Positions 35,154-63,097 of a DNA stretch of 64,000 nucleotides are shown here, one piece after another. A program made the position numbers and the translations under genes. How positions within the stretch are numbered: position 1 is the stretch's first letter; the number at the start of each line of letters is the position of its first letter. The notes beneath the pieces were generated by a model. It saw only the letters and a list, made by a program, of their open reading frames with translations. It had not been told where the DNA came from and did no database searches. Origin of the DNA: a virus; IMG/VR virus record IMGVR_UViG_3300010397_000041, positions 28,426-92,425 of that record. One strand, 5' to 3'.

Positions 35154-36605
35154 TCAATTCACCATGTCGACAAACCGGCTGTAGTGCCCTTGGAATGCCA
35201 CGGTGATCGTGCCGGTCGGGCCGTTGCGGTGCTTGGCGACGATCAGATCGGCCTCGCCGGCCCGCGCTGACTCCTTCTCGACCATGTCTTCGCGGTACAG
35301 CAGGATCACGATGTCCCCGTCCTGCTCGATCTGGCCAGAATCACGCAGGTCGGCCAGCGTCGGGCGCTTGTCCGCGCGCAGGTCGGAGGCCCGGTTGAGC
35401 TGGCTGACGACCACGACTGGGATCTCCAGCTCCATCGCGAGCGTCTTCAAGCCGCGGCTGATCTCGCTGATCTCCTGGACCCGGTTGTCGCGGCGGCCCG
35501 CCGTCATCAGCTGCAGGTAGTCGACGAGCAGCAGTCGCAGGTCGTTTCGCTCGTAGAGACGCAGCGCCGCAGCGCGCAGCTCCTGCACGGTCAGGCGAGG
35601 CCAATCGTTGATGAACAGCGGCGCCTCGGCGACCTCGCCCATCCGCCGGGCGAGCCGGCCCCAGTCGTCCTCGGTCAGCCGGCCGGTGCGCATGTTCTGC
35701 AGCGAGACTCGCGCCTCCGCGGCCAGCAGCCGGAGCGTCAGATCGACCCCGGGCATCTCCAGGCTGTACAGCGCCGTCGTCATCCCGTATTTGATCGCCG
35801 CGGCGCGGGCGATGTCGAGACACAGCACCGACTTTCCGACGCCCGGCCGGCCCCCGACGACGACCAGCTGGCCGGGCTGCAGCCCATTCGTCAGGTCGTC
35901 GAGCTCGGCGAACCCGGTCGGCACCCCGGTGATCCCACCTTCGTGGGCAGCGATGGCCTCGATCGCGCCAAGCGCCGAGCCGAGCAGGTCTCCCAGGGGT
36001 CGGGATGGCGGCAGCTTCGTCGATCCGGACAGCCGGGCCGTCGGTCGGGCCACAGACGGCGCTTCGAGGACGACCTGGTCGAGGGTTCTCTCGGTGACCC
36101 GCCGGGCCGGCCGGTCGAAGTCCGCCCACGCTCGGACCGCGGCTAGCACCTCCCTGCAGGGGGCGTCCGGCGTGACCCGGGTGTCCAGGATGATCGCCGA
36201 CTCGTGGTTGCCCCGCAGGCCGGAGAATGTCAGGTTCGCCGACCCGGCCAACACGGTCTCGGACCCGTCGCCGCGGCGGATGTAGTAGCTCTTGGCGTGC
36301 ATCAGCGGTTGTTCGTCGTCGCCGTCGACGAGCAGTAGCGTCGCCCGCGAGCCGTGCGGCTCGAATAGCGCCGCGACTGCAGCCAGGTCGGCCGCGGAGA
36401 CCTGCTCCTCCCGGGCGCCGGTGACCAGGTGGACTTCACCGCCGCGGTCAAGGATGGCCGCCAGGTGCGGCTGGATCAGCTTCAGTCCGTGCTCGGTCAG
36501 GTAGCCGGTTTGGGCGGCAAAGACTCGCGCTTCCTTGAGCTCGGTGAGCATCCATCGCTCGACGGTGTGGTCGGGGCCGCCGGCGGCGGTGTCGAGATAG
36601 CGCAC
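35154..36605 (-). CDS. PLD-type nuclease fused to DnaB-type replicative helicase
   Basis: 483 residues, GTG start. N-terminal ~170 residues have the phospholipase-D-like nuclease pattern: LMHAKSYYIRRGDGSETVLA (HxK: H103, K105), then GSANLTFSGLRGNHES (121-136), preceded by FAAQTGYLTEHGLKLIQPHL. From residue 225 it matches the DnaB C-terminal helicase: GVPTGFAELDDLTNGLQPGQ, Walker A GGRPGVGKS (251-259), YSLEM, Walker B LLLVDYLQLM (358-367), VVVVSQLNR, RDSGQIEQDGDIVILLYRED. The DnaB N-terminal domain is absent, replaced by the nuclease. One gene could give strand unwinding plus nicking/repair or a defence function. Promoter region shared with the divergent PIN gene. Confidence 0.85.
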   Translation of the reverse strand: MRYLDTAAGGPDHTVERWMLTELKEARVFAAQTGYLTEHGLKLIQPHLAAILDRGGEVHLVTGAREEQVSAADLAAVAALFEPHGSRATLLLVDGDDEQPLMHAKSYYIRRGDGSETVLAGSANLTFSGLRGNHESAIILDTRVTPDAPCREVLAAVRAWADFDRPARRVTERTLDQVVLEAPSVARPTARLSGSTKLPPSRPLGDLLGSALGAIEAIAAHEGGITGVPTGFAELDDLTNGLQPGQLVVVGGRPGVGKSVLCLDIARAAAIKYGMTTALYSLEMPGVDLTLRLLAAEARVSLQNMRTGRLTEDDWGRLARRMGEVAEAPLFINDWPRLTVQELRAAALRLYERNDLRLLLVDYLQLMTAGRRDNRVQEISEISRGLKTLAMELEIPVVVVSQLNRASDLRADKRPTLADLRDSGQIEQDGDIVILLYREDMVEKESARAGEADLIVAKHRNGPTGTITVAFQGHYSRFVDMVN

Positions 36606-36863: not shown

Positions 36864-37358
36864 GTGCCCAGACGCTTTGTGCTCGATTCCAATTTCTTTG
36901 ACGAGCTGGTGAAGTCGCCCGAGGCCTACCAGGCCACCAGAGCCGCGGTCGAGGGAGCCGCCACCGAGCTGCTCGTCGACACAATGGTGCTCGGCCAGCT
37001 CGGCGCCACCAAGGACATCGCCAAGCGGACTCAGATGCTGGCGTATGCCAATGAGCTGTGCCGCCGGGTGGAGCACGGCGGCGCTGGGTATGGCATCGGT
37101 CCGTACGGTGCAGGCCCGTACGGCGGCGCCCGGCCCGCCGAGATGCCGATCGCGACCGCCGTGATCGGCAACGCCACCAATAACGGCACGATGGCCGACT
37201 CCGCCATCGCCGCGACCGCACACTACGAAGGCGCCGTCCTCGTCACTCGCGACGGCGCGCTCCGGAAGAAGGCAACTGCAGAGGGCGTGGAGGTTCTCTC
37301 GCCTGCGGAGTTCTTCACCGAGATCGGTTTCGACACTGCGGAGGCCGCCTCGCCGTAA
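36864..37358 (+). CDS. PIN-domain ribonuclease (VapC-like)
   Basis: 164 residues. RFVLDSNFFDELVKSPEAYQ carries the first acidic residue (D8), ADSAIAATAHYEGAVLVTRD the second and third (D112, D130), and GVEVLSPAEF is the typical last strand. Residues 72-90 form a Gly/Tyr-rich insertion. PIN proteins cleave RNA and act mostly as VapC-type toxins. No obvious antitoxin gene adjoins it; the divergent partner is the PLD-helicase fusion. Alternatively it is a repair or RNA-processing nuclease. Confidence 0.75.
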   Translation: MPRRFVLDSNFFDELVKSPEAYQATRAAVEGAATELLVDTMVLGQLGATKDIAKRTQMLAYANELCRRVEHGGAGYGIGPYGAGPYGGARPAEMPIATAVIGNATNNGTMADSAIAATAHYEGAVLVTRDGALRKKATAEGVEVLSPAEFFTEIGFDTAEAASP

Positions 37359-37477
37359 ACGGGCCGGTTGTCAGCCGCAGGCACCGTGGCGTCTCTCCCG
37401 ATGGAGCCGGGCGTCGAGTCGGAGGCCGGGGCACAGCTGCGCGAGCTGCTCGCCCGGGTCCACCGGATGCCCGGGTG

Positions 37478-37518
37478 ACCGGCCTCCGCCTGCCGTCGTG
37501 CGGCACGCGGAGGCCGGT
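37478..37518 (+). terminator. 12-bp perfect hairpin after PIN gene
   Basis: ACCGGCCTCCGC (37478-37489) pairs perfectly with GCGGAGGCCGGT (37507-37518). It closes the plus-strand unit that includes the PIN gene. A short possible reading frame of 31 codons at about 37386-37481 precedes it but cannot be called. Confidence 0.55.
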
Positions 37519-47485: not shown

Positions 47486-47820
47486 CGCAGCCGCCGGTGC
47501 TCGTCAGCGTTCGGGCAGGTCGTGAAGTGCGAGACCCACCGCGTGCCAGCTCGCTCCCGGTCCGCCGGGATCACCCGGGCGACGACGATGCCGCCGGTCC
47601 GGGTGCAGGCGACGTTGCCGGTGGGCGTCGGGTCGCGGTCGATCGGTATCCACTCCCCCTTCGGCCAGGTCAGCGCCCAGCGGATCGATGCGCGGCAGGA
47701 CTGGCACGTCGGCCGCTTCTGGCCGTACTCGGCCCGCCAGCGGGTCGTGAGCGCGTCCAGGAGGGCCGCGTCGAGCTGCGCAGCGACCTGCGGGATGTCG
47801 ACGAACAGGTCGGCGCTCAC
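47482..47820 (-). CDS. Zinc-binding protein
   Basis: 112 residues from GTG 47820. SADLFVDIPQVAAQLDAALL, GQKRPTCQSCRASIRWALTW, PKGEWIPIDRDPTPTGNVAC, VSHFTTCPNADEHRR. CQSC...CP...H fits a phage zinc ribbon seen with IDRDP. Unknown. Confidence 0.6.
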   Translation of the reverse strand: MSADLFVDIPQVAAQLDAALLDALTTRWRAEYGQKRPTCQSCRASIRWALTWPKGEWIPIDRDPTPTGNVACTRTGGIVVARVIPADRERAGTRWVSHFTTCPNADEHRRLR

Positions 47821-48191
47821 CAGCGCTTCTCCAACGCGAAGTCCCGGTGGAAGCCGGAGTGGCCGGCCGCGAGACCGCAGGTCGCGCGGGTCCACGTCGG
47901 CGGCGGCCCGGCTGCGACAAGCGGCGCGACGTCGGCCTTCATCGCGCAGCGCCAGTGCTGCTCGCCGAGGAGCCAGCCGGGCGACACGGCGAGCGCCTCG
48001 GCCAGCTTGATCAGGTTGGGGATGGTGATTGCCCGGTGGCCGTGTTCCCAGAGGCTGATCGTGTGGCGGCTGACGCTGACGGCGTCCGCGAGCTCCGCCT
48101 GCGTGCGGCCCTGCTGGCCGCGTTCGGTGGCGATGCGGGCGCCGATCGTCTTGAGGAGTTCGTCGCGCGGGTCTGGGCTTGGCGCGGTCAT
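47817..48191 (-). CDS. XRE-family regulator with C-terminal Cys/His tail
   Basis: 124 residues. LKTIGARIATERGQQGRTQA, ELADAVSVSRHTISLWEHGH, RAITIPNLIKLAEALAVSPG is a complete Cro/CI HTH. The C-terminal 45 residues (HWRCAMKADV, ATCGLAAGHSGFHRDFAL) carry Cys/His of zinc-ribbon type. One of four such regulators. Confidence 0.85.
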   Translation of the reverse strand: MTAPSPDPRDELLKTIGARIATERGQQGRTQAELADAVSVSRHTISLWEHGHRAITIPNLIKLAEALAVSPGWLLGEQHWRCAMKADVAPLVAAGPPPTWTRATCGLAAGHSGFHRDFALEKRW

Positions 48192-48709
48192 GTCAGTCCT
48201 GCCAGCCGGTAGGCGACCAGCGACCCTGCCACCGCGACGTTCAGCGAACTGCCGACCCCGGCCATCGGGATCTCGACCAGCTCGTCGAACAGGTGGAACG
48301 CCGACGCGGGGATGCCGTGGCCCTCGTTCCCGAGGACGATCACTGTCGGCCCGGTCGCCGGTGCCAGCTCGCCGAGCGGGACCGCGCCGTACGCGAGCTC
48401 GACGCCGACGACCCGGGAGCCCGCCGCCCGGGCGCCGGCGATCCAGGCGAGCACGGACGGCTGCAGGTCCGCCAGGTCGAGCGCGAACTTCCCCCGGTCA
48501 CCTTTTCGCAGGGCCTGGATCGCGGTCGAAGTGGACGGGACGACGAGCCGGGCGTGGAGCGCGTCGCACGTCCGGGCGAGCGTGCCGAGATTCAGCCCGT
48601 TCTTCACCCACGGCATCGCGATTGTCAGGAGGCCGTCGACGGCGACCTGGCGGAGCCGCTCGCCGCGCAGCTCCTCGCGGCTTTTCGGCCGGATCTCGAT
48701 GGTTGTCAT
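48188..48709 (-). CDS. SpoU/TrmH-type RNA 2'-O-methyltransferase
   Basis: 173 residues. Motif 1 NGLNLGTLARTCDALHARLV (N40-R46), motif 2 TVIVLGNEGHGIPASAF, motif 3 LVEIPMAGVGSSLNVAVAGS, all characteristic of the SPOUT class (TrmH/SpoU). The knot uses SAM to methylate ribose 2'-O of tRNA or rRNA. It is short, without the N-terminal substrate-binding domain of many family members. Presence in a phage early operon between a regulator and a hypothetical gene is unusual; it could protect or change tRNA or be a moron. Confidence 0.85.
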   Translation of the reverse strand: MTTIEIRPKSREELRGERLRQVAVDGLLTIAMPWVKNGLNLGTLARTCDALHARLVVPSTSTAIQALRKGDRGKFALDLADLQPSVLAWIAGARAAGSRVVGVELAYGAVPLGELAPATGPTVIVLGNEGHGIPASAFHLFDELVEIPMAGVGSSLNVAVAGSLVAYRLAGLT

Positions 48710-49023
48710 CGGCCGGCTCCGTCCAGCGTGGCCGGGTCGAGGAGCCGCGGACCGGCGTCCTGCTGGAGGCCGGCCGGCGCCGGCCGCGGCGGGAGCGCCC
48801 TACGTGCGGCGTCAGCGCCGCGGACGGCCGCGTCCCGCTGCTGCTGCCGCAGGGCGGCCTGGGCCTGCTCGTGGCGCTTCTGGCGGGCAGCGAGACGCCG
48901 GGCGCGGGTCTCCGACGGCGGGACAGTCGTGATCTCGCCGGTCGACTCGTTGACGTAGGTGTTCGAGCCGTCGGGGATCTCGCGGCCGAACACGTGGCCG
49001 GGGAGCGGCGGCGGGGTGCTCAC
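48706..49023 (-). CDS. Small Ala/Arg-rich coiled-coil protein
   Basis: 105 residues from GTG 49023 (GGAGGTCC upstream). STPPPLPGHVFGREIPDGSN, TYVNESTGEITTVPPSETRA, then RRLAARQKRHEQAQAALRQQ. GTGA overlap with the initiator candidate. Unknown. Confidence 0.55.
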   Translation of the reverse strand: MSTPPPLPGHVFGREIPDGSNTYVNESTGEITTVPPSETRARRLAARQKRHEQAQAALRQQQRDAAVRGADAARRALPPRPAPAGLQQDAGPRLLDPATLDGAGR

Positions 49024-50165
49024 GCGGACCTCCTGCACGGCTCTGTGCGCGCGCTCTGGCCGATGACTGGTCGCGGGCCGGCTGGGTGCTGGTCCGTGTG
49101 CCTGTCGTCGGTTTCGAGGCGTCTGAGGGCTTCGGTGAGGGCTGGGGCGTCGTCTCCGTGCCGGGTGGCTGTGTCGGGGCAGTGGCAGGCGCCGTGAAGC
49201 GCGCAGTGGCCGCTACAGCCGCGGAGTCCTCGGAGGTGGGGGGTTTGTCCGGTACGCGGGGGGTGCGGGGGGCGCGCGTTTGCGCCCCCCGCGGTGGGCT
49301 GGGTGGTGGGCATCGGGACCTCGTGCGCGCCTGCTCGCGCGCTGGTGAGTGGTCGCTGGGGGTGGCTGGTCTGGGTGGGTGGCTGGTCCAGCCCAAGCGG
49401 GTCCGTTGGTTCGGTCGGGTGCCGCTTCGGGGGGCCGAGACGCCGGCCCCCCGCACCCCCGGCGTCTCGGGACGTTGGCTCGCTCTGCGTGGTGGGTTGC
49501 GGGGCGTGCCGGGTCGCGCTGTCGGCCGGCGGGTCCGCTGGGGTGGCGTCGGTGGTTGCGTGGCGTCGGGGTCGGAGGGGGATCACCTTCGCGAGGCCGG
49601 GCTCAGCTTGGGTGGGTGGCTGCGCCGCGCGGGGCGCGTCGCCGCGGCTGGCGTCGTGGCCATGTCGCCGGTCGCGGTCCGGGTCTACTGCTCCGACCTC
49701 GCTGCGCGAGGACTGGTTTTTATAGCGGGCCACAGGGTGGCTCACAACTTCGGCGAGTTGGGTACGAGTGGCTGGCTCACAACTTCCGGGAGTTGTGAGC
49801 CGTTCGTGGCTCACAACTCGGGGAGTTGTGAGCCGAACTTGGCTCACAACTTCACCGGGTGGGACCTTCGTCGTCCATCCTCGGAACGCCTCCCAGCGGC
49901 CGAGGCGGCCATTCCCGCCTTCCCTCGTGTTCTTCATCCAGCCGTGTTCGGCGAGCCAGGTGAGGTGGCGGCTGAGGCTCCGCTCGGGCATGCCGAGCGC
50001 TGCGGCGAGGTATGGCCGGCTTCTTTCCAGCGTGCCGTCAGGCTTCATGAAGGCGACGACCTCGAGTGCTGTCGCTTTGTAGGTGCGGGTCGCGGTCGGC
50101 CAGGTCGCGGCCTTGATGGCCCGCTGCCATCCGGCCCTGTCGACGCGCGTCTGGTCGTCACTCAC
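49020..50165 (-). CDS. Winged-helix replication-initiator candidate
   Basis: 381 residues (GTG 50165 or 50180). Residues 15-100 are a winged helix: RAIKAATWPTATRTYKATAL, EVVAFMKPDGTLERSRPYLA, AALGMPERSLSRHLTWLAEH, GWMKNTREG. The C-terminal 240 residues are Thr/Pro/Arg-rich and disordered-looking with one Cys cluster (GCSGHCALHGACHC). Iterons lie inside codons 105-143, the organisation seen for lambda-type O proteins whose origin is within their own gene. A plain transcriptional regulator is the alternative. Confidence 0.6.
   Translation of the reverse strand: MSDDQTRVDRAGWQRAIKAATWPTATRTYKATALEVVAFMKPDGTLERSRPYLAAALGMPERSLSRHLTWLAEHGWMKNTREGGNGRLGRWEAFRGWTTKVPPGEVVSQVRLTTPRVVSHERLTTPGSCEPATRTQLAEVVSHPVARYKNQSSRSEVGAVDPDRDRRHGHDASRGDAPRAAQPPTQAEPGLAKVIPLRPRRHATTDATPADPPADSATRHAPQPTTQSEPTSRDAGGAGGRRLGPPKRHPTEPTDPLGLDQPPTQTSHPQRPLTSARAGAHEVPMPTTQPTAGGANARPPHPPRTGQTPHLRGLRGCSGHCALHGACHCPDTATRHGDDAPALTEALRRLETDDRHTDQHPAGPRPVIGQSARTEPCRRSA
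49739..49851. repeat. Four iterons with inverted partners, candidate origin
   Basis: GGCTCACAACT occurs at 49739-49749, 49774-49784, 49808-49818 and 49841-49851 (spacing 35, 34, 33). Inverted copies AGTTGTGAGCC lie at 49791-49801 and 49824-49834, so the middle two units are near-perfect palindromes. An AT-rich patch (GGTTTTTATAG, about 49715-49725) is adjacent. This lies inside the winged-helix gene and fits initiator binding sites at a replication origin; transcription-operator use is the alternative. Confidence 0.75.
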
Positions 50166-50451
50166 CGTTGACGTGCTCACGGCGGGTGGAGCTGTGTTCG
50201 GCGCCCGCGGCCTTGGCGGATTCCTCTGCGAGGAGTCGGAGGTACTGCTCGCGGTGGGCGCGGGCGAGCCGGGCCAGGGCGCGCCACTGGGCGGTGCGGC
50301 GTTCGGCGCGGGTCAGGCGGAGGTTGTCGGCGGCGGCGCGAGGCATCGACAGCGGCGGCCGGCGGGCGGTGGCCCGGTCGGCAAGTTCACGGTCGAGCTG
50401 GTCGCGGCGTTCGGCTGGCGTGCGGCCCGGGGTGTTGGGGTCAGGTTTCAT
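50158..50451 (-). CDS. Small Arg/Ala-rich helical protein
   Basis: 97 residues: MKPDPNTPGRTPAERRDQLD, RELADRATARRPPLSMPRAA, TRAERRTAQWRALARLARAH, REQYLRLLAEESAKAAG. Highly helical and basic. The overlap with the winged-helix gene suggests a replication-related partner, but no family is recognised. Confidence 0.55.
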   Translation of the reverse strand: MKPDPNTPGRTPAERRDQLDRELADRATARRPPLSMPRAAADNLRLTRAERRTAQWRALARLARAHREQYLRLLAEESAKAAGAEHSSTRREHVNGE

Positions 50452-50458
50452 CGGACGC

Positions 50459-50983
50459 CTACCGGCTCTTCGCGTCGACGCGCCGGGCGGCGACCTGCTC
50501 GCGGGTCCAGCCGGTAACGGCGGCGAGATCGGCGTGGGAGGCCTGTTCCAAGGCCCAGCGCCAGAGCACCGCGGCGAGGCTCGCGGGTAGATGTCCTGGC
50601 TCGGGGTCGGCGATCAGCTCGGGCCGCGCGGCGCGTAGCTCCCGTTCGACGTCGCGAATGTGCCGGGCGTTGATGCTGGCGAGGGCGCGGTCGAGCTGCC
50701 GGATCGCGAGATCGCCGGGGCGGCCGCCGCCAGCGGCGAGCGGCTCGCCGGTGCGCCAGTGGGTGATCGCCCAGTGGGCGTCGAGCCTGCTACCGCCGAG
50801 GCCGCCGTCGATGACCTGCAGGTCGGTGGTCTGTTCGATCTCGCGGACCCGCGCGGCGAGGGCCGCATGCCAGGCGTCACGCCGGTCGAGGACGGTCCGG
50901 ACGTAGCCGGCGATGGCGTCACCGAGGGTGGTTGCTGGCGGGTTGCCGGTCCCGACTGAAGAATCGCATGCCAAAATGAGCAC
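50459..50983 (-). CDS. Hypothetical protein with possible HTH end
   Basis: 174 residues from GTG 50983 (GAAGGG about 9 bases upstream); an upstream extension to 51208 is not protein-like. LILACDSSVGTGNPPATTLG, DAIAGYVRTVLDRRDAWHAA, LAARVREIEQTTDLQVIDGG, DRALASINARHIRDVERELR, AALEQASHADLAAVTGWTRE-like end (ASHADLAAVTGWTREQVAAR). The last part resembles an HTH. Preceded by a region with a TACTGCAGTA palindrome. Confidence 0.55.
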   Translation of the reverse strand: MLILACDSSVGTGNPPATTLGDAIAGYVRTVLDRRDAWHAALAARVREIEQTTDLQVIDGGLGGSRLDAHWAITHWRTGEPLAAGGGRPGDLAIRQLDRALASINARHIRDVERELRAARPELIADPEPGHLPASLAAVLWRWALEQASHADLAAVTGWTREQVAARRVDAKSR

Positions 50984-51301
50984 TGCGTCATTCCCTTCTG
51001 TTACTGCAGTAGGGGTGGTGCGTGCGCCGGACCGGTGCCCGCCGGAAAGGCGCCTCGTCCGAGCGGCGAGGTCGGACCGAGATGCTGAACCCATCTCGGT
51101 CCGGCGCCGCTGGACGTCTCCCAGCCTAGGGCCTTCGGTTGGATATGTCCTGGCCAGGAGGCGTGTCGTTCCGTCCACAGACGGTTCCTCATTTCTCAAC
51201 GTCGGCACGATTCCAAGCCACCGGTGGTGGCGGACTGGAAACGCGGGCAGGCTGGAATGGCCGCTTGTCGGCGGCCCTCCAGCGAGAAATGTGATAGCCG
51301 T
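50984..51301 (-). promoter_or_regulatory. Regulatory intergenic region
   Basis: 318 bases without a convincing gene. It holds a 10-base perfect palindrome TACTGCAGTA (51002-51011) just upstream of the gene starting at 50983, suitable as an operator, and a strong hairpin at 51074-51102. A transcription start for the leftward genes (origin and regulators) is expected here but no clear -35/-10 pair is seen. Confidence 0.4.
51074..51102 (-). terminator. 11-bp perfect hairpin
   Basis: GGACCGAGATG (51074-51084) pairs with CATCTCGGTCC (51092-51102), loop CTGAACC. Downstream of the gene ending at 51302 on the minus strand. No U-run, so terminator or processing signal is uncertain. Confidence 0.5.
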
Positions 51302-51781
51302 CTACTGGCCGTTTCTCACCGCCGTCTCCAACGCAGCCTCGGGAATCAACGGGCAAACATGGGGCAGCCATATGACGGCGCCTGATGTCGGCTGGGCGGC
51401 GATCGCGACGACGAGCCGGCCGCTGGCCTCGTCATCGACGGCCAGGCCCCATTCGCCGGTCAGCGTCAGGAGGCCCTTCGCGAGCGCCGCCCCCGCCTGG
51501 CCGCGCCACGATTGGAGTTCACCGCAGAACCCGCAGCGGGCCACGCCGCGCAGCGGGTCGAACGCGAACCGGTCGGCGCCCGGCAGGCCATCGAGCGTGC
51601 TCGCCGCCTGAGTTGGCGCGGGCGGCGGCGGCCCGTCGACGAGCTGTCGGGGTGTCACCTCGCGGGCCGAGCCGGCGCACGTCGCCACCGTCCCGCGGCC
51701 CTGGTGGGAGACCATCCGGCCGGTCGCGGTTACCGCGTAAATGTCGCCGCAGACCCTGCAGCAGGCACGTTGCAACGTCAT
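51302..51781 (-). CDS. Zinc-binding protein
   Basis: 159 residues from ATG 51781. TLQRACCRVCGDIYAVTATG, RMVSHQGRGTVATCAGSARE, then GVARCGFCGELQSWRGQAGA. Two CxxC groups around a beta domain (IYAVTATGRMVSHQ-style zinc motif is common in phage proteins). Unknown. Confidence 0.6.
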   Translation of the reverse strand: MTLQRACCRVCGDIYAVTATGRMVSHQGRGTVATCAGSAREVTPRQLVDGPPPPAPTQAASTLDGLPGADRFAFDPLRGVARCGFCGELQSWRGQAGAALAKGLLTLTGEWGLAVDDEASGRLVVAIAAQPTSGAVIWLPHVCPLIPEAALETAVRNGQ

Positions 51782-56857: not shown

Positions 56858-57063
56858 GCCGCTGCCCGCCGCTCCGTTGAGCCGGTGAGCTGGCCGTTCC
56901 GGTCGGCGTAGGCATCCACGACCATCTGGTGGAGCGATTCGATGAACCGGCTCAGGTCGCCGACCTCCTGGTGCAGCACGTCCATCCGCCGCCGGCCTGT
57001 ATCGCCGTACACGCTGTGCTCGGCGGGCCGGCCGGCGCTGACGCGGAGCGGGGTCGCCGTCAT
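56854..57063 (-). CDS. Small hypothetical protein
   Basis: 69 residues: TATPLRVSAGRPAEHSVYGD, TGRRRMDVLHQEVGDLSRFI, ESLHQMVVDAYADRNGQLTG. Helical; directly coupled to RecT (ATG overlaps its stop). Unknown. Confidence 0.5.
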   Translation of the reverse strand: MTATPLRVSAGRPAEHSVYGDTGRRRMDVLHQEVGDLSRFIESLHQMVVDAYADRNGQLTGSTERRAAA

Positions 57064-58361
57064 CGCATGCTCTCCGCGATCTCGTCGGGCGACCGCAGGT
57101 CGGTCCAGTCCTCGTCGTCCGGGCTCGCGCCGCCTGCCTCATCGGCCGGCTCCGTGTCCGCGACATCGCCGGCCGGCGCCAGAGGGAAGAGGGCGGACAT
57201 GGCGCCGGTCTCCATGGCCTTCGCAGCGGCCTTCCACACCTGGTCGACCTCGGCGCGGGTGAGGTCATTCGCCGTCGTGATCGGCCGGCCCACGACGTTC
57301 GTCATCGCCTTGTGCCGGTCCGCATCTGCCGTGATCTTGAGGTCGGAGAGGTATTTGTGCATCCGCCGCATCTCGTTCTCCGGCGCCGGAAGCTGCCAGA
57401 GGCGGACCCGTAGCGCCTCGTCCATCGCCGCGGCGATGTCTGCAGGCAGGCCCTGCCGCTTCGCGTGCGCGACCTGGCCGTTCAGCTCCCGCCAGGTGTC
57501 GACGTCCGCCGCTGGAATCGCAGCGAGCGTCTTCTCGATCCACCGCCGGTCGTCGTCCGCCATCGCACCGTCAGCCGGCGCGTCCGCGCCATTGCCGACG
57601 ATCACGGTCGTCTGGTCTGCGATCCGCTGGCGTGCGGTCGGCGGACCTGCCTGCCGCGACTCCGAGTCGAGATGGTCCATCTCGCCCTCGTAGAAGACGC
57701 CGGAGAAGTCCTCCGGGTAGGCCATCCGCAGCGCCAACGCCTCGCAGCATTTGGAGAGCATCTGGTCGCCGCCGCCTTTGCCCCACCGGCCGGTCGGCGT
57801 GCCGGAGCTGTTCGTCTGGACGTAGGCCGCCCAGCGGCAGACCGCGACGAACTCCTCGACCCGTCCAAGCCGGTCAGTGCGGATCACGGTGAAGCGGGCG
57901 GCGTGCGGGTTCCCGTCGCCGAGCCAGACGTCGCGCCAGACGCCGTCCTTGCCGCACCATTCGGCGGCTGGGATCTTCCGCTCGCGGTCGCCGTAGCTGT
58001 AGGACGAGCCGTCGAGGCGGGCGGCACGGCGGCCGATGAGCCGGTAGCCGTCGATCCCCGTCTGGATTGTGTACTTGGTGACGTACACGTCGCGCCACTG
58101 CCCATGCTCGTCCTGACGCCGTTCCTTCGACTGCCGGCCGATCATGTAGATCTGTTTGGTGAACGGATCGAGGCCGCGGCGCTGCGACTGGTGCAGGAAC
58201 ACGGCGAGATCGCCTTCGGGGGCGTCCTTGAGGCCGAGCTGCGCGAGCGCGGCCCGCTGGTGCGGCAGCCATGTCGTCTGTGCGTCCGAGATCGCGAGGA
58301 CGCCGCCCGCGCGCGGTTCGGCGACCGCGACGGCGGCGTGGTCGGTGGTAGCGACGGTCAT
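57060..58361 (-). CDS. recT: RecT/Bet-type single-strand annealing protein
   Basis: 433 residues from ATG 58361. Core matches phage Bet/RecT: LAVFLHQSQRRGLDPFTKQI, YMIGRQSKERRQDEHGQWRD, TIQTGIDGYRLIGRRAARLD, and EFVAVCRWAAYVQTNSSGTP, then DQMLSKCCEALALRMAYPED, FSGVFYEGEMD. It anneals complementary single strands during recombination and replication restart. It is coupled to the exonuclease gene upstream (ATG overlaps its end), as expected for a RecE-RecT pair. Confidence 0.88.
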   Translation of the reverse strand: MTVATTDHAAVAVAEPRAGGVLAISDAQTTWLPHQRAALAQLGLKDAPEGDLAVFLHQSQRRGLDPFTKQIYMIGRQSKERRQDEHGQWRDVYVTKYTIQTGIDGYRLIGRRAARLDGSSYSYGDRERKIPAAEWCGKDGVWRDVWLGDGNPHAARFTVIRTDRLGRVEEFVAVCRWAAYVQTNSSGTPTGRWGKGGGDQMLSKCCEALALRMAYPEDFSGVFYEGEMDHLDSESRQAGPPTARQRIADQTTVIVGNGADAPADGAMADDDRRWIEKTLAAIPAADVDTWRELNGQVAHAKRQGLPADIAAAMDEALRVRLWQLPAPENEMRRMHKYLSDLKITADADRHKAMTNVVGRPITTANDLTRAEVDQVWKAAAKAMETGAMSALFPLAPAGDVADTEPADEAGGASPDDEDWTDLRSPDEIAESMR

Positions 58362-59230
58362 AGGTCGTAGTCCTCGTCTGGGATCCACGTCGCGTAGGAC
58401 GGGAGGGAAAGCGGCTGGATGTCGACCGGGTACCCGGGCCAAAGGCCGGTCGCCTGGCAGTCGCGGAATGTCTTCAGCGCCTTCGTGACGCGAGCGTCGC
58501 CGACCTCGCACGCCAGCCGGTCGAACTCGTAGGCCGCAGTGAGGTATGGCGGCGTCTTCTCGACGACGAGATGGATGAACTCGGGCTCTACGTCGTCGTC
58601 GATGCCGAGCTGCGCGCGTAGCGCTCTCACGCCGCGCAGGTAGAGCGCGTACTGGTCGTGGTAGCCGTAGTTCGCGGCGTCACGCCGGAAAGCCTCCTTG
58701 GAGGCGTTCTTCGACGTCTTGAGGTCGACGATCGTGGCCTTGTTCGACAAGTCGAGCCGGCCGCGACACCAGACGCCCGTCTCCTCGTCGCGCCAGAACA
58801 TCGACCGCTCCGCGATGCCACCGTCGAGGAGCGCGGAGAGAGGCGACGCCCGGAATCCGGCGACCATCGCCTGGACCTGCGCCCACTCGCTCGTCTTCAG
58901 CGGAGTGAGACCGGCCTGGAGCGCCTGAGCGCGCGCGGCCTTGGCGTCCTTGGTCGTCCAGGCGTCGAAGGGCAGGGGAACGTACTCGGCGCCGGTTCCG
59001 AGCACGATGGAGTGAAAGACCCGGCCGAGCTCGAAGTCGGTCTTGTCGGGCCGTCCGTGCTCCCGATACCAGGCGAAGTGCGCCGGAGTTCGGAGGATTT
59101 CCTTGACGCCGGTCGAGGAGATCGACCCTTCGGCGACAGGATCAAGGTGGTACAGGTCCTCCGGCATGCCGTCGACGAGGCATGGTTCAGTGATGATCGC
59201 CGGCACGGCTGGCGCCGTCGGGGCGGTCAC
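58358..59230 (-). CDS. PD-(D/E)XK exonuclease (RecE/YqaJ-like)
   Basis: 290 residues from GTG 59230. EDLYHLDPVAEGSISSTGVK, EILRTPAHFAWYREHGRPD, FELGRVFHSIVLGTGAEYVP (H73), then CRGRLDLSNKATIVDLKTSK with acidic/basic catalytic residues D160, D169, K171, and ANYGYHDQYALYLRGVRA (Q193). This is the RecB-like nuclease fold used by RecE/lambda-exo partners of RecT. It would resect double-strand ends for annealing by the next gene product. Confidence 0.85.
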   Translation of the reverse strand: MTAPTAPAVPAIITEPCLVDGMPEDLYHLDPVAEGSISSTGVKEILRTPAHFAWYREHGRPDKTDFELGRVFHSIVLGTGAEYVPLPFDAWTTKDAKAARAQALQAGLTPLKTSEWAQVQAMVAGFRASPLSALLDGGIAERSMFWRDEETGVWCRGRLDLSNKATIVDLKTSKNASKEAFRRDAANYGYHDQYALYLRGVRALRAQLGIDDDVEPEFIHLVVEKTPPYLTAAYEFDRLACEVGDARVTKALKTFRDCQATGLWPGYPVDIQPLSLPSYATWIPDEDYDL

Positions 59231-59526
59231 AGGAGTCCGTCCCGATAGCGCTGCCGGTAGAACCGCAACGCGCTGTGCTGCTCGACGAGCAGATCGGCCA
59301 GGTCGCTGTGCGGCATCCGCCGGATGAGTTCCTCGGCGAACGCCTTCCACCGGTCCCGCTCACCGCGCAACTCGGCGACGTCCTCGGCGTGCATCGCCTC
59401 TCGGCAGTCACACGCGGGGTGGTGGTTGCCGCAGAGCGCGGCCCGCAGGTCGCCGGTGTCCCGCGGCGCCGTGTAGGCGACGGTCGATCCGTCGAGAAAC
59501 CGGATCGTGGGCAGGAGCGCCTTCAC
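59227..59526 (-). CDS. Small hypothetical protein
   Basis: 99 residues from GTG 59526. KALLPTIRFLDGSTVAYTAP, LRAALCGNHHPACDCREAMH, ELRGERDRWKAFAEELIRRM, EQHSALRFYRQRYRDGLL. Has a CGNHHPACDC cluster and a charged helical tail. Unknown, coupled to the nuclease. Confidence 0.55.
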   Translation of the reverse strand: MKALLPTIRFLDGSTVAYTAPRDTGDLRAALCGNHHPACDCREAMHAEDVAELRGERDRWKAFAEELIRRMPHSDLADLLVEQHSALRFYRQRYRDGLL

Positions 59527-61822: not shown

Positions 61823-63097
61823 GTGGCCCACATCCGTGGCCTCGGTCCGCCGAACCCGCACTATCCCAAGCGGGGCAAGAAGAACCTAGGCCCATACAAG
61901 ATCACGGTTAAGCGGAAGGGCTGGGACGACCGCTTCTTCACCCGCGACACCCTGGCCGCCGCAGAAAAATGCGCTCTGCACGCGGAGGAGGACCTCGACA
62001 ACGGGATCGACCCCTACGACCGGTACAAACAGAAGCACAGCGCCGACACCACCACGCTCGAGGCGTTCGCGGAACTGTGGCTCGCCGCCCACTTCCACGA
62101 ACCCAGCACCCGCTACAACGCCGAGCTGACCGTCGCCAAACACATCTTGCCGGTCTTCGGGACACGCGAGCTGACCGACGGCCAGCACCGCATCCGCCCC
62201 ATGGAGATCGACGCCTGGCTGGGGCGGCTCCGGCGCGACCGCGTCCCGAAGACCGGCCGGCCACTCGCGAACGCCACCATCCGCAAGATCTTCGGGCACC
62301 TTGATGGACTCCTCACCGCGGCCGTCCTCGAGGGCCACCTGGCCAAGAACCCCTGCGTCGGCATCGTTCCCCCAAGGGTGCCGAAACGTCCCAAGGTTCG
62401 GCCTGGGCACATCCTGACGCCGGCGCAGGTCATCGCCATCGCCGAGGTGATCCAACGCCCCCGCAAGGGCGCAAAGCCCGGTGCTCCCGTCCTAGAGCGC
62501 AGGCGCCGGTTCGCGATCCTCGTGATCGTGCTCGCGTGGTCCGGGTGTCGGCCGGAGGAGCTGCGGGGGCTGCGCCGCGACGAGGTCCACCCTCTGCGCC
62601 GGCCGGCGCCGACGCTGACAGTGGTCGAGCCGGTGAAGCGGGGCCTGGTCGCGAATCCCACGGAGAACGGGCCGAAGACCGAGCTCTATCACGGCTCGCC
62701 GAAATCGGACGCCGGCCAGCGGGATGTCGAGCTGATCCAGCCTGTCTGGCTGCTGATCGCCGAGCTGATGGCGAACAAGCGGCGGTATGTGTTCGGCACC
62801 CGCAACCAGACGCCCTTTCAGGCGCCGGACTTCCAGGAGATCTGGGACGAGGCGGTGACCTCGCTCGGGCATCCGGAGTGGAGGCCCTACGACCTACGCC
62901 GGTCGCACGCCACCTGGCTGAAGCGGGCGCCGCGGCGTGCGCTGCAGGAGCGGCTCGGGCACGAGCCGCAGGACGTCACCGACCTCTACCAGGACGTGGA
63001 GCCGGAGGACCGCGCGGAGATCCTCACCGTGCTGAACCGGCTCTGGAAGGAGGGCCAGGCCGGCGCGGCGCTGGTCGCGGCGGCCGCCGCACAGTGA
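61823..63097 (+). CDS. int: Tyrosine integrase
   Basis: 424 residues, GTG start with GGGAGAAAG upstream. N-terminal arm- and core-binding parts (GPYKITVKRKGWDDRFFTRD, FHEPSTRYNAELTVAKHILP). Catalytic domain: SGCRPEELRGLRRDEV (R243), SPKSDAGQRDVEL (K294), RPYDLRRSHATWLKR (R359 region), LGHEPQDVTDLYQDV (H380, nucleophile Y389). The protein inserts and excises the prophage at attP/attB. Tyr position and motif spacing fit actinophage integrases. Located next to attP-like repeats. Confidence 0.92.
   Translation: MAHIRGLGPPNPHYPKRGKKNLGPYKITVKRKGWDDRFFTRDTLAAAEKCALHAEEDLDNGIDPYDRYKQKHSADTTTLEAFAELWLAAHFHEPSTRYNAELTVAKHILPVFGTRELTDGQHRIRPMEIDAWLGRLRRDRVPKTGRPLANATIRKIFGHLDGLLTAAVLEGHLAKNPCVGIVPPRVPKRPKVRPGHILTPAQVIAIAEVIQRPRKGAKPGAPVLERRRRFAILVIVLAWSGCRPEELRGLRRDEVHPLRRPAPTLTVVEPVKRGLVANPTENGPKTELYHGSPKSDAGQRDVELIQPVWLLIAELMANKRRYVFGTRNQTPFQAPDFQEIWDEAVTSLGHPEWRPYDLRRSHATWLKRAPRRALQERLGHEPQDVTDLYQDVEPEDRAEILTVLNRLWKEGQAGAALVAAAAAQ

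Follow-up and report, generated by a model that had tools for sequence, protein, structure and literature searches.

A probable lambda-like replication origin formed by alternating 11-bp half-sites within the candidate initiator gene of a high-GC temperate phage

The stretch of DNA analysed here (the window, 64,000 bases in length) spans positions 28426-92425 of a virus record that totals 92,425 bases, and its AT content averages 29.7%. Judging from its gene content, which includes a tyrosine integrase, RecE- and RecT-type genes, a DnaB-type helicase, a terminase large subunit, a portal and a Mu-F-like head gene, the source is a high-GC temperate tailed phage, and the relatives of its terminase in named phages were identified to be mostly actinophages (Microbacterium 33, Arthrobacter 29 and Streptomyces 22 of 161 records). 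A candidate initiator gene is placed between the integrase, RecE and RecT genes on one side and the DnaB-type helicase gene on the other. Scans of the window for tRNA genes and Rfam families returned nothing. The genes considered in the following are:

35154-36605, minus strand: phage DnaB-type replicative helicase with an N-terminal PLD-like domain (PF03796, E 4.8e-95; PF13091, E 2e-9; PHROG 19, E 4e-77)
49020-50180, minus strand: candidate replication initiator, 386 aa, GTG start (PHROG 270, E 4.9e-5; PHROG 391, E 0.0084; winged helix in the AlphaFold2 model)
57060-58511, minus strand: RecT-type annealing protein of the early region (PF03837, E 2.3e-13)
58358-59350, minus strand: RecE/exonuclease VIII-type nuclease (PHROG 412, E 3.1e-80)
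61823-63097, plus strand: tyrosine integrase (PF00589, E 3.8e-9)

In the helicase, the usual DnaB N-domain is replaced by a PLD-like nuclease domain (HAK...GSANLT motif), and for this N-terminal stretch no relative was found by tblastn in phages or viral contigs. The early region furthermore contains a gene for a SpoU/TrmH-type RNA methyltransferase (48188-48709, minus strand; PF00588, E 3.2e-20), which is located approximately 300 bp downstream of the initiator gene.

The product of the candidate initiator gene consists of a winged-helix N-terminus (approximately residues 15-100) and a C-terminal half of low complexity. Its match to PHROG 270 ("replication initiation protein") is weak and covers residues 44-154, that to PHROG 391 ("O-like") covers residues 31-89, and Pfam revealed sub-threshold helix-turn-helix matches only. 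The AlphaFold2 model of residues 1-113, which was derived from a 13-sequence alignment, possesses a mean pLDDT of 78 and the helix/strand order of a winged helix. Comparison of this model with viral models by Foldseek identified 28 matches at E <= 0.001; one of these, at rank 24, is protein O of Escherichia phage Min27 (E 7.1e-4, TMq 0.58). When compared with the PDB, the best Foldseek match reached an E of only 8.8e-3 and many of the matches were transcription regulators, the list also including "Structure of initiator" (4pt7) and a Rep-DNA complex (5kbj). Sequence search of the PDB with the initiator returned generic winged-helix regulators, and the search with the 13-member profile placed a "chromosome replication initiation protein" (2vn2) eighth (E 1.1e-4). 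Considering the weak profile match, the predicted fold and the genomic context, the gene probably encodes a replication initiator. The preliminary description of this DNA had placed the repeats within a winged-helix, initiator-like gene, a view which is supported by the PHROG 270 match, the AlphaFold2 model and the viral structure matches.

Inside this gene the 11-mer GGCTCACAACT is present in six exact copies within 113 bp, four of which are located on the plus strand and two on the minus strand. The plus-strand copies follow each other at steps of 35, 34 and 33 bp, and the two copies on the other strand are their inverted partners. Taken together, the copies form a series of slots that alternate in orientation at steps of 16-18 bp, whereby the sole gap in this series is filled by a seventh, eroded slot that is found in the expected orientation:

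49739-49851, not assigned to a strand: iteron array of six exact 11-bp half-sites and one eroded half-site, alternating orientation, period 16-18 bp (array count reached in 0/1000 synonymous shuffles)
49739-49749, plus strand: half-site 1, GGCTCACAACT, 0 mismatches
49756-49766, minus strand: half-site 2, eroded (AGTTGGGTACG, 7/11 match), in register
49774-49784, plus strand: half-site 3, exact
49791-49801, minus strand: half-site 4, exact, inverted partner of half-site 3 with a 6-nt spacer
49808-49818, plus strand: half-site 5, exact
49824-49834, minus strand: half-site 6, exact, inverted partner of half-site 5 with a 5-nt spacer
49841-49851, plus strand: half-site 7, exact

With one mismatch permitted, the whole window still holds just these six copies of GGCTCACAACT, the chance level being 0.77 copies on average and 3 at maximum (100 shuffles), and in the complete 92,425-base record all six exact copies reside inside the array. 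A whole-window scan identified the array as the sole six-copy cluster, and the part of the record that precedes the window (28,425 bases) contains no cluster with four or more copies. The next-largest cluster of the window is formed by the 9-mer CGGAGGCCG, four copies of which are located within 178 bp (37339-37516). The preliminary description had counted four copies at intervals of 35, 34 and 33, which is correct with respect to sequence, coordinates and inverted partners but not with respect to the number of exact copies, which is six. Its further suggestion that the spacing would place the sites on one face of the DNA does not hold, as the mean step of 34 bp corresponds to 3.24 turns at 10.5 bp per turn, which is not a whole number and leaves the sites out of helical phase.

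The array occupies codons 110-148 of the 386 codons (nucleotides 329-442 of the gene), and its copies are read in all of the frames 0, 1 and 2. When the codons were shuffled synonymously, none of 1000 shuffles contained more than three copies of any 11-mer, as compared to the six observed. The use of three reading frames together with the outcome of the shuffles documents that selection acts on the DNA and that the array is not a peptide repeat; coding-only repeats, raised as an alternative in the preliminary description, are excluded on the same grounds. What is found within the gene is hence an array of seven alternating slots that includes two exact dyads and is selected at the DNA level. 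Beyond the array, the 3' part of the gene contains two strong G-rich palindromes (49265-49292 and 49428-49453, with 11- and 10-bp arms and 6-nt loops).

Next to the array, on the gene's 3' side, the following element was identified:

approximately 49715-49725, not assigned to a strand: short A/T run GGTTTTTATAG, a weak candidate unwinding element

Within the gene, the 15-mer of lowest stability is found at 49709-49723, which puts it in the bottom 0.04% of all window positions, whereas at 25 bp the region belongs to the least stable 2% of the window only. In the 40 bp that adjoin the array on its 3' side, the AT content amounts to 40%, which is to be compared with the window average given above and with 77.5% for the lambda tract, and of the AT-rich patch described earlier just this short run remains. 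Also the suggested GC-skew check did not yield a switch, as no sign change is found at the array, which is weak counter-evidence because skew may follow gene orientation here. The initiator gene lies within the region of most negative AT skew (-0.28 to -0.32) in the window, at 48000-51000. DnaA boxes (consensus TTRTCCACA) are absent from 48500-51500, the array included.

The replication origin of phage lambda is a textbook case. According to PMC5043065 and PMC7466680, it is located in the middle of gene O, dimers of the O protein bind to its inverted repeats and O binding opens an adjoining A+T-rich region of 40 bp. PMC7466680 also describes a plasmid-based origin test of Stx-phage iterons. 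The annotated iterons of lambda occupy nucleotides 348-432 of gene O, starting from codon 117 and being read in frames 0, 2, 2 and 1, and with steps of 20, 24 and 23 bp they are not evenly phased either. As in ori-lambda (and the Stx phages), the iterons of the window are dyad-symmetric, lie midway in the gene of a winged-helix initiator and are read in several frames, the array starting at codon 110 here; the lambda-like placement proposed for the repeats thus agrees with lambda O/ori in both position and layout. Differences concern the sequence and length of the half-sites, the unit steps (33-35 bp here, 20-24 bp in lambda) and the 40-bp AT-rich tract, which is missing here. Unlike in the lambda O/P module, a P-like helicase loader gene is not found next to the initiator gene; its downstream neighbour (48706-49038) has no family match, and the helicase gene is 13 kb away. 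Lambda O matches PHROG 277, whereas the window protein matches PHROG 270 and, weakly, 391, but not 277, and the hhalign profile comparison of both proteins yielded a probability of 14%, which is not significant. The locus appears to resemble ori-lambda in its working, yet on the level of sequence its protein stands outside the lambda O family proper. A plasmid-type iteron origin, with monomer binding to direct repeats in helical phase and with DnaA boxes, does not agree with the inverted alternating half-sites, the 34-bp mean step and the lack of a DnaA box.

Close homologues of the initiator were found neither in viral contigs or genome contigs nor by tblastn in phages, and comparison of its N-terminal part with phages and plasmids gave chance-level matches only (lowest E values 0.5 and 0.8). 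The strongest matches among 396 actinobacterial genomes (E 0.001-0.01) were mostly other DNA-binding regulators or unrelated genes, with L130 as a useful exception. The 18-bp palindrome core is absent from these 396 genomes, and in viral contigs two lone copies were found (L009 and L010), which is about the estimated chance number and neither of which is part of an array. As no close initiator relative was available, relatives were sought through the neighbouring genes RecT (21 viral and 4 genome loci) and terminase (40 viral loci). Among the RecT relatives, L031 carries GTTGTGCAC palindromes just 3' of its winged helix. This O-like gene of IMGVR_UViG_3300037485_001666 (L031/L047), whose contig encodes the related RecT, resembles the window in that its half-sites form palindromes and in its first unit steps of 35 and 33, which are followed by steps of 23 and 22; it differs in its GC content of 47%, in its 21-bp units and in the half-site itself beyond GTTGTG. 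The nearest relative found is L185 (record G422, 1 of 26 terminase-locus records), the initiator of which is 31% identical to the N-terminal part of the window protein (E 8.8e-6). From codon 113 onwards its gene contains CGCTC-N8-GAGCG palindromes (0/300 shuffles), as judged by a palindrome statistic that was chosen afterwards and that, when applied to the window gene, takes its top score from the two G-rich palindromes and not from the array. With respect to exact 9-mers L185 is borderline (5/300, or 3/300 as L195), and as the five main ones among its palindromes share a single frame, part of this repeat is also a peptide repeat. Another initiator-like gene, that of L191 (490-1992, minus strand), possesses very long palindromes with 18-19 bp arms and GTCCGCC/GGCGGAC units.

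Initiator loci were surveyed for 9-mers present at least three times within 200 bp on either strand at no more than 3/300 synonymous shuffles, an exact detection which misses degenerate arrays. As controls, the lambda O iterons were detected by this test (0/300 shuffles) while gene P was not flagged (198/300), and 0/55 other genes of the window were positive (200 shuffles). Twelve of the 28 surveyed PHROG 270 initiator loci were positive and 16 were not. This sample consists of L042, L044-L047, L049 and L101-L122, with L043 (L042's match, a genome record), L048 (no ORF at the centre) and all weaker hits having been dropped; L101 (5/300) and L105 (9/300) were scored negative, L104 and L121 are one gene and both count within the 28, and as the ORFs were chosen mechanically, a few wrong genes are included (e.g., L102 resembles RadC and L122 a GntR regulator). 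For the terminase-related phages, 5/11 PHROG 270 loci were positive and 6/11 were not, L192-L194 being left out and L195 being the same gene as L185. Seven genes of named Gordonia and Mycobacterium phages, which are annotated initiators or DNA-binding proteins or genes in that position, yielded a single positive (prophi62-3_22, 1/300). The respective locus (L038, 10164-10961) is an annotated RepA-like initiator of the Mycobacterium prophage prophi62-3 and contains three GTCACGTGA copies at 11-12 bp steps; in this named phage, it may be regarded as a candidate for an intragenic origin. The layout is hence common, yet far from universal, in the surveyed initiator genes. It recurs in distant relatives with other repeats (the positives of both surveys, L031 and L185); as far as the sequences compared reveal, it is the layout that recurs and not the repeat sequence, the window's repeats being seen in no relative.

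The PHROG 270/391-type actinobacterial arrays (L110, L185, L187, L191, L181 and others) share with the window the location of the repeats just 3' of the winged-helix part, and several of them are palindromic as well, whereas their repeat sequences are different and many of them have steps of approximately 22 bp. Unlike the window array, those of L185, L187 and L119 contain exact DnaA boxes, i.e., 3 of 18 array genes, with two boxes in L185 (gene 1459-2310). Array regions totalling 4,426 bp contain exact TTRTCCACA 4 times, as compared to 8 occurrences in phage loci totalling 791,567 bp, and 2 copies in 4,023 bp remain when L185 is excluded; here, the 18 array-bearing genes had been chosen after the repeats were seen, and the count was made after the boxes had been noticed in L185. 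As a lead and not as a test, the DnaA boxes may point independently to an origin function of this class of arrays. A literature search for actinophage origins, covering mainly openly readable papers, gave only PMC7157519, which deals with plasmid-like prophages. Its authors suggest a RepA-type origin upstream of or within the gene for extrachromosomal mycobacteriophage prophages, and they report that no repeated motifs were detected in the regions they examined. The RepA-type prophages resemble the window in possessing a helix-turn-helix initiator and a possible intragenic origin, but they are plasmid-like with parABS, whereas the window encodes an integrase.

Based on this characterization, it is very likely that the phage uses the array as its lytic replication origin, the intragenic iterons of which would be bound by the gene's own product in an ori-lambda-like manner. 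The suggested mechanism assumes that dimers of the winged-helix initiator occupy the inverted 11-bp half-sites distributed over 113 bp of their own gene and that the bound initiator wraps or bends the array DNA. Next, the adjacent DNA would become destabilised, perhaps at the short 3' A/T run, and the initiator would help to load the phage's own DnaB-type helicase, whereby replication would start at the array. Counted in favour of this assignment were the half-sites with their symmetry and register, their independence from coding, the winged-helix model with the initiator and O-like matches, the agreement with lambda, the recurrence of the layout (L185 included), the DnaA boxes in other arrays and an early region that also encodes RecE/RecT, an integrase and the helicase. 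Counted against it were the lack of a GC-skew change, a 40-bp AT-rich tract, a DnaA box and a P-like neighbour, the weak initiator match and the non-significant profile comparison with lambda O, the fact that the same repeats were found in no relative, the negative loci of both surveys and the single positive among the seven actinophage genes.

It is improbable that the half-sites serve solely as operators, at which the initiator itself or a regulator of the phage would repress or block transcription of the early operon, with no role in an origin. Perfect dyads would suit any dimeric winged-helix or helix-turn-helix regulator, and a helix-turn-helix regulator gene is located nearby (47817-48191), but the array resides mid-gene with no promoter-like site in 49000-50600 (as scanned with a sigma-70-type consensus only), its seven slots over 113 bp exceed what is usual for an operator, and the layout recurs in other initiator genes, some of them with DnaA boxes. 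Quite improbable is also the idea that the palindromes function as hairpins of DNA or RNA, be it for single-strand initiation, as a primase-assembly signal or as a structured mRNA segment. The array does comprise two palindromes of 27-28 nt with 11-bp arms, and the single-strand DNA fold of its minus strand amounts to -35.7 kcal/mol (z -6.8, 0/200 shuffles); the equal steps of 16-18 bp, however, suit repeated protein sites better than independent hairpins, half-sites 1 and 7 are exact yet without an exact hairpin partner, and no T run follows the hairpins, the sole terminator-like match (49697-49711) being at chance number. That the repeats are due to chance, to a mobile REP-like palindrome or to a repeated peptide can practically be dismissed, for although mobility is possible for palindromic repeats and conservation of the linker is poor, no further exact copy is present in the 92-kb record, the 18-bp core is missing from the genomes searched and occurs in viral contigs just as two single palindromes, and the reading frames and synonymous shuffles exclude a peptide repeat.

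Going beyond the assignment of the array as a lytic origin, a wider class may tentatively be considered, although its existence appears rather doubtful. Within this replicon-specific class, high-GC actinophages would possess intragenic origins made of palindromic iterons for their own winged-helix initiator, optionally interleaved with host DnaA boxes, with DnaA helping to melt GC-rich origins that are without a long AT tract; the window would then represent the DnaA-box-free form with an alternating 17-bp half-site lattice and a helicase carrying a PLD-like domain instead of its usual N-domain. The DnaA boxes in the arrays of three relatives raise the question whether host DnaA may be a direct partner at such origins. 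As a methodical outcome, intragenic iteron arrays can be found by a simple synonymous-shuffle test. Essentially, the window locus together with L185, L187, L191, L181 and L110 provides concrete and directly testable candidate origins for integrating actinophages.
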